DNA from: Armatimonadota bacterium
Lineage (GTDB): Bacteria; Armatimonadota; Fervidibacteria; Fervidibacterales; Thermosaccharophagaceae
Direction: 5' to 3'
Assembly (NCBI GenBank): GCA_025062195.1
Contig: JANXAS010000027.1
Span: 1-44,015 of the forward strand
Length of the DNA stretch: 44,015 nucleotides
Shown here: positions 26,281 through 29,644 of the stretch, one piece after another
How positions within the stretch are numbered: the first letter of the stretch is position 1
Layout: every line of letters starts with the position of its first letter
The notes under the pieces: generated by a model
Told to the model about the DNA's origin: nothing
Seen by the model: the letters and a program-made list of their open reading frames with translations, nothing else
Database searches by the model: none
Made by a program: the position numbers and the translations under genes

Positions 26281-28257
26281 TTAGCCAGTTAGCCAGATCC
26301 CAAAATGATAGATGAGCCCTGCAACGATCGTTGCAATCACAAGCGGATAAATAACGGCGAGCGCTACTAACTTGAAAGAGCGCGTCTCAAGCCATATCGC
26401 AACAACAGTTGCAACGCACGGTATGTAAAGCATTTGGAAGGCGGTGAATGAAAGTGCTTGAAGAGGGGTCATCGCTTTGCGCAAGCTTTCCATCAACCCC
26501 TCTTGAGGGCTGCCGTAGAGCACGCTCAGTGTGGCGAGCGAATTTTCCTTTGCCAAAAAGCCGGTGACAAGCGCTGCGCAGGAGCGCCAATCAAGCCCGA
26601 TGAGTTTCCCGAACGGCTGGAGCAAAGAGCCGAGCTTGCCAAGATAAGTCTCATGCATCGGCGCACCAACCGGCAAATGTGAAAGCAGCCAGATGATGAT
26701 TGAGACTGACACAATGATGATTGAAGCGCGCTTTAAAAAAGCCACCACCTTATGCCAAGCGAACAGGATGATGTTGCGCATCGTCGGCACGGAGTAGATG
26801 GGCAGCTCTATCATCAACGGTGTTATCTCGCCCTTGATAGCAAACAGCCTCAGCAGTATCCCGGCAACGAAGACCATCAAGAGGTTAATCATGTGCAGCC
26901 CCAGCATCACTGTGACCTGAAGGTGCCTTGGGAAAAGAGCTGCGACAATGAACGCCATAACGCTGAGCCTTGCTGAGCATGGTATTATCGGGTTAAGGAT
27001 CGCAACCAAAACTCTATCCCTTTCGCTTTCAAGGATTCGGCTGCCCATAACACCCACGACATTGCACCCGTATGCCAAGATAAGTGGCAGTGCCGCCTTG
27101 CCATGCAACTTGAGCATATGCATTAGCCCATCCATAACGAAAGCCACCCTCGCCATGTATCCGCTATCTTCAAGGACGCTCATCAGGATGAAGAAGACAA
27201 CCAACACCGGCAACAGCGACATGACTGCTCCAAAGCCGGAAAGCGCGCCATCAATGATCAAGCCTTTGACGAAATCGCCAAAAGGTAGCATCGCCCTGAG
27301 CCGCTCACCAGCCCAAGAGATGATGCCATCAAGCGCTATAACAAGCGGTTCCGAAAGCCTGAATGTAAGCCAGAAGATGCACGCAAGCACAATAATAAAG
27401 ATGAGTAAACCGATGATCGGGTGCGCAAGGACATGGTCAAAGCTGTCTGTGATTGTTATTGCTTCTCTTGCTGGTCTATGCATGCACTGCGCCAGCGTTT
27501 CTCTCACCCATGCATATCTTGCATCGGCGATAAGCATTGGTGCTCTCTCGTTAGCCCTTAGCAACTCTTCAACTTGCTTCCAAAGGTCAGCATTGAGCGA
27601 GGCTTTGAGCAGCCGTTCAACTTCGGCATCGCCCTCAAGCAGCTTTACGGCAAGCCACCTTGGCGTGTAACCGCCTACAGCTTGCCTGCCGAGGAGTTCC
27701 TCCAACCGATTGAGCGTCCCTTCCAAACCGCTATAGCGTATCGGCTTTGGACTGACACCCACATCTCCGTTTGCGACCTCCACAATGCGTTCAACCAGTT
27801 CTCTAATGCCTTGAGCCCTCCTTGCAACCATTGGCACAGTCGGCACCCCAGTTTCCTCCTGCAGCTTGTGCGCATCAATCCTGTAACCCTTTGTCTCAGC
27901 CAGGTCCATCTTGTTGAGCGCCAAAATGACGCGATCGGTTAGCTCCAGCACCTGTGCAAGTAGGTAAAGATTGCGTTCAATGCCGGATGCGTCGGCTATC
28001 ACCACGACGATGTCTGGGCGCTCTTGGACTATGAATTCCCTCGCAATGAGCTCTTCAACTGAACTGGCTGTCAGGCTGTATATGCCGGGCAGATCAACGA
28101 TGTGAAGCACATGGTCGTCAAATCGGCAGATGCCCTCCTTTCGTTCAACAGTTTTACCCGGCCAGTTCGCCACATGCTGGTGCATCCCTGTAAGCATGTT
28201 GAAAATGGTGCTCTTTCCGACATTGGGATTGCCAGCAAGCGCAACACGAAGCTCCAT
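26281..28257 (-). CDS. feoB: Ferrous iron transport protein B
   Basis: FeoB is the GTP-gated inner-membrane Fe(II) importer. This 658-residue form has the N-terminal G domain: GNPNVGKST (G1, residues 9-17), the switch Thr36 region, DLPGIYSL (G3, 55-62) and NKMD (G4, 115-118). A spacer domain (~170-270) follows, then the membrane part with GCNVVGVMGSRILESERD (~415) and NPIIPCSARLSVMAF, the paired Gate motifs with the conserved Cys residues. Length is slightly short of the Escherichia coli protein (773). ATG 28257 is chosen over upstream in-frame starts because GGGGTGA lies 9 nt before it and the G domain would otherwise have a 40-residue tail. It is co-directional with feoA, 61 bases away. Confidence 0.96.
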   Translation of the reverse strand: MELRVALAGNPNVGKSTIFNMLTGMHQHVANWPGKTVERKEGICRFDDHVLHIVDLPGIYSLTASSVEELIAREFIVQERPDIVVVIADASGIERNLYLLAQVLELTDRVILALNKMDLAETKGYRIDAHKLQEETGVPTVPMVARRAQGIRELVERIVEVANGDVGVSPKPIRYSGLEGTLNRLEELLGRQAVGGYTPRWLAVKLLEGDAEVERLLKASLNADLWKQVEELLRANERAPMLIADARYAWVRETLAQCMHRPAREAITITDSFDHVLAHPIIGLLIFIIVLACIFWLTFRLSEPLVIALDGIISWAGERLRAMLPFGDFVKGLIIDGALSGFGAVMSLLPVLVVFFILMSVLEDSGYMARVAFVMDGLMHMLKLHGKAALPLILAYGCNVVGVMGSRILESERDRVLVAILNPIIPCSARLSVMAFIVAALFPRHLQVTVMLGLHMINLLMVFVAGILLRLFAIKGEITPLMIELPIYSVPTMRNIILFAWHKVVAFLKRASIIIVSVSIIIWLLSHLPVGAPMHETYLGKLGSLLQPFGKLIGLDWRSCAALVTGFLAKENSLATLSVLYGSPQEGLMESLRKAMTPLQALSFTAFQMLYIPCVATVVAIWLETRSFKLVALAVIYPLVIATIVAGLIYHFGIWLTG

Positions 28258-28318: not shown

Positions 28319-28582
28319 CTACCTTGAGCCTTTCGCCCTGATGAGTATCTCCCTTGCCATCCCCCTGCCAATAGCAACTCTTACATCTCTCACATTGATT
28401 AACACAGGACCAACAAACGCATTTTGAATGACAGAGATCTCTGTGCCTACCGTGATGCCCAAACTGCTCAGGCGTTCCAACACCCTTCTGCCACCGTATA
28501 TAGCTTCAACGATGCCAACTTCACCCGACGGAAGCTCACTCAGCGGAACCAACCTTTTACATTCCGGTTCCTCGCTTTTCAT
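28319..28582 (-). CDS. feoA: Ferrous iron transport protein A (SH3-like FeoA)
   Basis: A small cytosolic protein of 87 residues with the FeoA SH3-like fold: RLVPLSELPSGEVGIVEAIY, RRVLERLSSLGITVGTEISV and GPVLINVRDVRVAIGRGMAREILI. The last block is the family signature GRGMAxxI. FeoA is thought to bind FeoB and to support iron transport. It is the first gene of the minus-strand train. An operator palindrome ends 12 bases upstream of its ATG (28595-28617), so expression is probably controlled by a metal-responsive repressor. The RBS is modest (TGGTGAT), which may be a cost of the overlapping operator. Confidence 0.95.
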   Translation of the reverse strand: MKSEEPECKRLVPLSELPSGEVGIVEAIYGGRRVLERLSSLGITVGTEISVIQNAFVGPVLINVRDVRVAIGRGMAREILIRAKGSR

Positions 28583-28594
28583 GTCGCATCACCA

Positions 28595-28617
28595 GATTTG
28601 AGAGTTTGTCTCAAATT
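28595..28617 (-). promoter_or_regulatory. Operator palindrome upstream of feoA, site A
   Basis: Two 10-bp arms (GATTTGAGAG, 28595-28604, and GTCTCAAATT, 28608-28617) flank TTT and match at 8 of 10 pairs. On the minus strand TTTGAGAC begins 11 bp after a -10-like CATAAT (28627-28632), so the site covers about +4 to +26 of the predicted transcript, where a bound repressor would block RNA polymerase. The same sequence and spacing occur at 29471-29493. Fur or DtxR/MntR-type regulators are the natural candidates, by gene context only. Confidence 0.75.
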
Positions 28618-28626
28618 GAGATTGCT

Positions 28627-28632
28627 ATTATG
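28627..28632 (-). promoter_or_regulatory. Putative -10 hexamer of the feoA promoter
   Basis: CATAAT on the minus strand differs from TATAAT at one base. No good -35 lies at the usual distance, so the promoter may need an activator or have an unusual -35. It is supported mainly by its exact 11-bp spacing to the operator, shared with the beta-barrel gene. Confidence 0.45.
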
Positions 28633-28827
28633 ACACCTGCCGCGCATTAAACTTGTGCTCCCTGAGCAACCGTAGCAAAGGCGCATGGCATCTTGTAACC
28701 GCTCCATACATAAGCATTAAGCCAAACATAGGCTTTGCTCAAGATTACAGATGCCGTTTACACATCGGATTTGAAGTTCAAATAACACTCCCCCAATCCA
28801 TTGGATGTTAATTATGCTCATCCCCAT

Positions 28828-29451
28828 TCACCTGAAAGTCCATGCAACGCTGAGGCGAAACTGCCTCTTGTCGGAAACGATGATAGCCGCCCCGAGCTCA
28901 ATTTGCTCATCAACACTAACATACATCCCAAAAGCGCCACCAGAGCTAGTTCCAAAAAAGCGCTCAACAGCAATGTATGTCTGCTCCGCAAGATAGTGTT
29001 TAACTGCTGTCCAAGAGTTCCAATTGCCATTGGAATAACAGTGACCAATATGAATTGAGAGCCTTCCAAATGACTTACTTAAAGCGATGTATTTCGTGGC
29101 GCTCAGATTTGACCCCCAATCCATGATACCAATTGCAACCTGAGGGTTTTCTTTCCCCTCCTTCAGCAACCTAAATTTGATGTTGAAAGCAAAGCAACTT
29201 CGCTCATCCTTAACGCTGTAGTAATCAATGCCTGCTTCAGCTGCTCCAAAACCGAGCTGCAAAAATGCACACTTTTCACCCAACGACCTCAATGAGCCGT
29301 TGTTTGCGGCTAAGGAAAGTTCAAAGCGTATTTCTTTGCGCTCCATCACTTCGGCAGTCGGATAAAGGATTGAGCCTGTCGGGGACGAATATGAGCTTTT
29401 AGCGTTACATAACACCACTAACATACAAGTGATGGTCCTGCGCCACCGCAT
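28828..29451 (-). CDS. Predicted outer-membrane beta-barrel protein, metal-regulated
   Basis: A 207-residue protein with a Sec-like signal (MRWRRTITCMLVVLCNAKSSYS). Its mature part then begins SPTGSILYPTAEV, a motif shared with YjbH-like outer-membrane proteins (SPTGLIxTPTA). The remainder alternates polar and hydrophobic residues with aromatic edges (FAFNIKFRLLKE, LSIHIGHCYSNGNW, FGMYVSVDEQIELGAAIIV) and ends FRLSVAWTFR, consistent with eight to ten strands. ATG 29451 is chosen because AAGGA lies 9-10 nt upstream; a longer frame would run through the operator and promoter. The operator at 29471-29493 is a perfect version of the one before feoA, so this gene probably belongs to the same metal regulon. 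Function, perhaps as a metal-linked porin, is inferred. Confidence 0.65.
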   Translation of the reverse strand: MRWRRTITCMLVVLCNAKSSYSSPTGSILYPTAEVMERKEIRFELSLAANNGSLRSLGEKCAFLQLGFGAAEAGIDYYSVKDERSCFAFNIKFRLLKEGKENPQVAIGIMDWGSNLSATKYIALSKSFGRLSIHIGHCYSNGNWNSWTAVKHYLAEQTYIAVERFFGTSSGGAFGMYVSVDEQIELGAAIIVSDKRQFRLSVAWTFR

Positions 29452-29470
29452 AGTGATATGTCCTTCCCCG

Positions 29471-29493
29471 GATTTGAGACTTTGTCTCAAATC
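29471..29493 (-). promoter_or_regulatory. Operator palindrome upstream of the beta-barrel gene, site B
   Basis: GATTTGAGAC (29471-29480), TTT, GTCTCAAATC (29484-29493): a perfect 10-3-10 palindrome. On the minus strand TTTGAGAC begins 11 bp after a -10-like TATACT (29503-29508), the same geometry as site A before feoA. The repeat of sequence and spacing at two genes is the main evidence for a shared repressor. Confidence 0.8.
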
Positions 29494-29502
29494 TGTCCAA
29501 GC

Positions 29503-29508
29503 AGTATA
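29503..29508 (-). promoter_or_regulatory. Putative -10 hexamer of the beta-barrel gene promoter
   Basis: TATACT on the minus strand, five of six matches to TATAAT. A loose TTGTGA lies 19 bp further upstream as a possible -35. The predicted start point falls just before operator B. Confidence 0.5.
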
Positions 29509-29577
29509 GCGCATTTTGAGCTTTGTATCACAACTAACTGTGCAGCATTCAAATGACATCCATTGAAGCCGATCTCA

Positions 29578-29644
29578 AAGTGGGACATGAACGGCGTTCT
29601 CCGCTCGCCAATGCATCACCGTTGCCCCCTTCCATGTCCCACTT
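29578..29644. repeat. Perfect 12-bp inverted repeat with 43-nt loop
   Basis: AAGTGGGACATG (29578-29589) is exactly complementary to CATGTCCCACTT (29633-29644). The loop contains smaller self-pairing segments (GGCG/CGCC; AACGG/CCGTT), so an RNA of either strand could fold into a long stem with a structured head. There is no U-run. It could be a non-coding RNA element, a relic of a mobile palindromic element, or a protein site. Confidence 0.55.

Follow-up and report, generated by a model that had tools for sequence, protein, structure and literature searches.

Two palindromes, one in front of feoA and one in front of a small beta-barrel gene, are very probably operators of the single Fur protein of this Armatimonadota genome, a member of a Ser51-Arg52 subclade with a respelled 7-1-7 box that would shut off feoAB together with the barrel gene. 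The sites, their position at the promoters, the sole Fur, the boxes of its clade-mates and the linkage to feo are read from the sequence itself. Coordinates given without a contig refer to the window, i.e. the whole stretch of 44,015 nucleotides that was analysed.

Two palindromes and their promoters

The features of the locus are listed here from high to low coordinates:

29526-29531, minus strand: weak -35 (GTGATA) of the barrel promoter, 17-bp spacer to the -10
29503-29508, minus strand: -10-like hexamer TATACT of the barrel promoter (consensus match only)
29471-29493: putative operator 1, plus-strand letters GATTTGAGAC-TTT-GTCTCAAATC, perfect 10-3-10 palindrome (10/10 pairs)
29475-29489: inner 15-bp Fur frame of operator 1, TGAGACTTTGTCTCA
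28828-29451, minus strand: small YjbH-like predicted outer-membrane beta-barrel, 207 aa (PF06082, 3e-9)
28627-28632, minus strand: -10-like hexamer CATAAT of the feoA promoter (consensus match only)
28595-28617: putative operator 2 at the feoA promoter, plus-strand letters GATTTGAGAG-TTT-GTCTCAAATT, 8/10 pairs
28319-28582, minus strand: feoA, 87 aa (PF04023, E 1e-18)
26281-28257, minus strand: feoB (PF02421, 3e-61; PF07670, PF17910, PF07664)

The sequence-only reading had described both palindromes with these pairings, on the same strand, and had noted that, on the minus strand, TATACT and CATAAT are each followed after exactly 11 bp by the start of TTTGAGAC; the letters are as it stated. The two sites are separated by 876 bp and each lies at a promoter. 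In operator 2 one half reads TGAGAG instead of TGAGAC. Operator 1 is located between the -10 and the start codon of the barrel gene, and with the start placed at ATG 29451, where it fits best after a ribosome-binding-like stretch (GGGGAAGGA), it falls after the -10 and ahead of the ribosome-binding site. The start of feoB was taken by reading as ATG 28257 (MELRVALAGNPNVGKS), the listed ORF beginning at 28377. With a FeoA domain as well as the G-domain and gate domains of FeoB, a Feo transporter is encoded, and the identities proposed earlier for feoA, feoB and the beta-barrel hold at the level of the family (PF04023, PF02421, PF06082). Upstream of the barrel promoter we also noticed a 17-nt inverted repeat (29578-29594 / 29628-29644; AAGTGGGACATGAACGG / CCTTCCATGTCCCACTT) with a 33-nt spacer and without a match in Rfam.

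The genome-wide scan that had been suggested with the palindromes was carried out with TTTGAGAC-N3-GTCTCAAA. Within 3.42 Mb only two sites with at most one mismatch were found, one exact and one with a single mismatch, both of them in the window, while the reversed pattern used as control gave 0 matches. When up to three mismatches were allowed, 22 sites were found in comparison to 21 in the control, and those examined are nearly all located in ORFs. The core TGAGA-N5-TCTCA occurs 6 times in the genome (control: 0); the four copies elsewhere lie inside ORFs, of which the one at C110:24449 is short and may be no gene. Inspection of the sites with 0–3 mismatches for additional regulon members likewise led nearly always into ORFs. 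Only one candidate is well placed at a promoter, C33:7263 (TTGATATGACATCTCAA); the gene behind it is weakly LmeA-like and has no link to metals, and the site is not claimed. The sequence-only reading had looked to other metal genes for further copies of the motif; among the metal genes inspected, the predicted regulon looks confined to the barrel and feoA promoters.

Across the 291 genomes of the phylum, matches with at most one mismatch were present in 12 genomes, which corresponds to chance level. Since the motif reaches only this level across the phylum, two copies 876 bp apart and both at promoters are not a product of chance. Most other matches in the phylum belong to this chance level, for example that of G004 from the same order, which is located inside an ORF. 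An informative exception is G283, described below. In G244, near-identical copies with one mismatch lie near two contig ends (G244:C20:68867 and G244:C49:129197; L033, L035); they are at chance level too and probably part of a repeat.

A single Fur and the boxes of its clade

The search for Fur, DtxR and MntR genes that had been recommended turned up a single FUR-family gene (E 3.8e-27; C22:36836-37309, L020:1453-1926). Neither PF02742 nor PF01325 (N- or C-domain) matched in this genome (G000), and DtxR/MntR was rejected as the regulator since the genome lacks any DtxR-family protein. At a genome completeness of 97%, a second regulator could be missing from the assembly. The protein carries the winged-helix FUR domain (PF01475) together with the metal ligands: the E. 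coli positions H33, E81, H88, H90, E101, C93, C96 and C133 are kept, as is Arg57, and its recognition helix contains Ser51-Arg52. Because the genome's own fur promoter shows no TGAGA-type box, the connection between Fur and box is made here by the clade and not by autoregulation.

To compare promoters, 82 fur loci of the phylum were fetched. Exact TGAGA-N5-TCTCA was found upstream of fur in 10 of the 82 loci, where about 0.02 such boxes would be expected at equal base frequencies and 0 were found in shuffled sequence. In a maximum-likelihood tree all ten box-bearing Furs, four with near versions of the box and the Fur of G222 join the Fur of this genome in one clade of 16 rows (support 96/70, SH-aLRT 70), in which the latter sits on a long branch of 1.09. 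Most members are organised as fur-feoA-feoB operons (in part from ORF translations that were read, FeoA homology by tblastn). The box marks ten fur promoters, fur-feoAB operons and the feoA promoter of the window. In G283, TTTGAGACTGTGTCTCAAT follows 4 bp after a perfect TTGACA-17-TATAAT directly ahead of the operon fur - small barrel - feoA - feoB, and in G283 as well as G284 fur, barrel, feoA and feoB stand behind a single box. In two further loci (L113 and L119; G276, G285) a 344-aa ORF occupies the place between fur and feoA in which G283 and G284 have the small barrel. A search for related loci with FeoB returned only two distant archaeal loci.

Both TGAGACTTTGTCTCA and TGAGAGTTTGTCTCA fit the frame of the Fur box, a 15-bp 7-1-7 inverted repeat with TGA-N9-TCA. 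Their five outer pairs are perfect, the centre departs from the classical AATNATT, and in comparison to TGANAATNATTNTCA there are 3 mismatches. Some relatives in the Fur clade have a perfect 7-1-7 form (TGAGACTGAGTCTCA), and other Fur clades of the same phylum use the classical spelling (TGATAATGATTATCA in G061, TTGAAAATAATTTTCAA in G206, also TTGCGACAATGTCGCA). The sites of the window share with the classical Fur box TGATAATNATTATCA and the Fur repression of feoAB the 15-bp TGA...TCA frame, the promoter position, an iron-uptake target and a Fur-family regulator. They differ at half-site positions 4 and 6, which are G and C (TGAGAC) rather than the classical T/A and A, and their Fur has Arg52 in the recognition helix where classical Furs have Leu or Ile. 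Owing to the frame common with TGATAATNATTATCA and to its presence in fur promoters of the same clade, we read TGAGAC-N3-GTCTCA as a respelled classical Fur box, not as a motif foreign to Fur. Of the lineage-specific motif proposed at first, the spelling is retained, but a type of operator outside the Fur family is not.

The position of the box was compared as well. In Arg52-type fur loci its core starts 3–14 bp after the -10, usually with a good TTGACA; the promoters ahead of the boxes in relatives are good TTGACA-17/18-TATAAT-like ones. For the window sites the distance from the -10 to the start of the core is 13 bp. What is conserved is that the box lies over the start region, immediately downstream of the -10. 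The fixed 11 bp is no hallmark, since the distance varies in the related fur promoters. What remains of the 'fixed promoter geometry' in the sequence-only reading are the -10 hexamers, at the level of consensus; consensus reading finds no good -35 at feoA and only the weak GTGATA at the barrel gene, and the 11-bp spacing is not conserved in relatives. The fur promoters of L114, L115 and L117 (G279, G280, G282) contain, upstream of the Fur box, another perfect palindrome, GTATATTGAATATAC, that overlaps with the -10. It may represent an additional operator or simply an AT-rich -10.

That the protein is a Fur paralogue sensing manganese, zinc, nickel or peroxide (Mur/Zur/Nur/PerR-like) instead of iron has some points in its favour. 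No NCBIfam equivalog cut-off is reached for any subtype, Pro and Arg stand in place of the ligands H87 and H125 of a further metal site, and in one clade member (G204) the sequence after fur reads like a Cbi-type cobalt/nickel transporter. We nevertheless regard this as unlikely: the Fur model scores best (PRK09462 with 70.7 bits at a cut-off of 146, versus 55.7 for PerR and 28.4 for Zur), Glu81 and Glu101 are as in Fur, and feoA/feoB lie downstream in most of the clade. At the G204 locus (L127, fur at 905-1420 on the reverse strand) a same-clade Fur has the box TGAGATTCAGTCTCA and no feoAB, which suggests that the metal has changed within the clade.

A different repressor, another winged-helix or an Rrf2-type protein, could also bind the palindromes, their likeness to the Fur box then being convergent. 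The missing box at the genome's own fur gene and the restriction to just two sites at one locus would suit such a protein. The same box, however, marks promoters and fur-feoAB operons of precisely the clade that holds this Fur, and with no DtxR-family protein in the genome we give this explanation little chance. A short mobile or structural element present in two copies, with no operator role, can be dismissed almost entirely: a palindrome can form a hairpin and the two copies would sit in 5' leaders, but their likeness ends 1–2 bases beyond the palindrome, about 20 related promoters carry the box with different flanks at a similar place after the -10, and an RNA element was dropped as their identity as Rfam gave no match.

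A single metal-responsive repressor with iron as the probable signal, as supposed from the two sites at the outset, is supported by the sole Fur, the lack of DtxR and the clade boxes at fur-feoAB. For repression by Fur we infer binding, metal, repression and barrel function as follows. With sufficient intracellular Fe(II), metal-loaded Fur dimers would cover the transcription-start region just past each -10 and block RNA polymerase. At low iron Fur would depart, releasing two transcription units, one for the small beta-barrel and one, feoA-feoB, for the import of Fe(II). Passage or handling of Fe(II) at the outer membrane would probably be the role of the barrel.

Recognition-helix residues and box spelling

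The recognition helix of this Fur clade reads [VA]SRA[ST][VIL]YR, that of most other Furs xLATVYR. Of the 24 fur genes that encode Arg52 (E. coli numbering), 21 have TGMRAY-N3-RTYKCA in their promoter, compared with 0 of 58 others, the pattern being partly fitted. Because it had been tuned on the same 82-gene set, 40 further fur genes were fetched as a held-out set. Here the genes with Arg52 and Arg57 had the exact pattern in 2 of 4 cases and the pattern within one mismatch in 3 of 4; among the rest it was present in 1 of 36. Where Arg52 is combined with Asn57 (VYN type) the box was found in 0 of 5. Half-site position 6 is C/T where residue 52 is Arg and A where it is Leu, and position 3 is C where residue 51 is Asp/Asn and A where it is Ser/Gly; given the clade structure, these associations are not independent events.

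In the published Fur-DNA structure Tyr56 and Arg57 read bases and Lys15 reads shape (PMC4506495). The feoAB1 operator of Magnetospirillum Fur (MgFur) is likewise a Fur operator at feoAB that is unlike the textbook GATAAT repeat; its crystal oligonucleotide TGCAAATCATTTGCA has the same 15-bp frame as the window operators, and the DNA-reading Tyr56/Arg57 are a further likeness to our Fur (PMC4506495). In contrast to the latter, MgFur has Ile at position 52 (by alignment) and position 6 of its operator is A, not C/T, which fits the association for residue 52, whereas its Ser51 occurring with TGC is a misfit for residue 51. A two-residue code, with position 6 (A or C/T) determined by residue 52 (Leu or Arg) and position 3 (A or C) by residue 51 (Ser/Gly or Asp/Asn), is a tentative proposal that we think somewhat less probable than its failure; the window operators would then be the Ser51-Arg52 reading and would regulate a dedicated Fe(II) channel of the outer membrane that is coupled to Feo. 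Searches of the open-access literature gave no mention of Fur boxes of the TGAGAC type or of a 51/52 helix code.

The small barrel and the sister family

The barrel protein matches PF06082 with 36.7 bits (cut-off 24), covering only 150 of the 658 profile positions. No relative was found in the PDB, and a single-sequence AF2 model (pLDDT 42) is too poor to judge the fold. The protein is 21–23% identical to the barrels of G283 and G284 (E 1e-7), and its profile detects relatives in 40 of 291 genomes. Eight of the 30 barrel loci fetched adjoin feoA/feoB on the same strand (G000, G283, G284, G287, G193, G246, G203, G190) and span six families (f1, f45, f22, f37, f24, f20). On account of this linkage the barrel may be an outer-membrane partner of Feo. 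Some genomes with a feo-linked barrel are not among the FUR matches listed, so the link of the barrel to feo is wider than its link to Fur. In Francisella, FupA is an outer-membrane ferrous-iron protein working with FeoB (PMC4905997, PMC7432831). This pairing is a functional precedent for the proposed role and not a shown homologue of the 207-aa PF06082-type barrel.

Conservation at feoA in close relatives, whose lack the sequence-only reading had named as refuting its idea, gave a divided picture. Two genomes of the sister family (G001, G002) have feoA and no FUR match. In both (2/2) a co-directional DtxR gene immediately precedes feoA, and no TGAGAC-type box was found at their feo loci; in these two genomes the lack of the box goes along with the lack of Fur. 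In more distant relatives with a Fur of this clade the box is conserved at (fur-)feoAB. As in the fur-feoA-feoB operons, a metal-repressor gene stands beside feoA and feoB in G001 and G002; they differ in having DtxR for Fur, and TTTAGC-N4-GCTAAA upstream (read in L269) for TGAGAC-N3-GTCTCA. In G002 a DtxR/MntR-like palindrome, TTTAGCCAACGCTAAA (L269, ~1709-1724), precedes the DtxR gene of the DtxR-feoA operon. Judged by gene content, the regulator at the feo locus is replaced between the sister families, Fur in one and DtxR in the other, which documents such a change at the same locus.

The assignment made here gives a putative regulator to an operator that scans with the classical Fur-box consensus would miss. 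The proposed rule from residue to base is testable in a widely studied family of metalloregulators: single exchanges of residue 52 (and 51) should change which box is preferred. Finally, the small predicted outer-membrane barrel would be a recurrent co-directional partner of FeoAB in diderms, where little is known about how Fe(II) passes the outer membrane during uptake.
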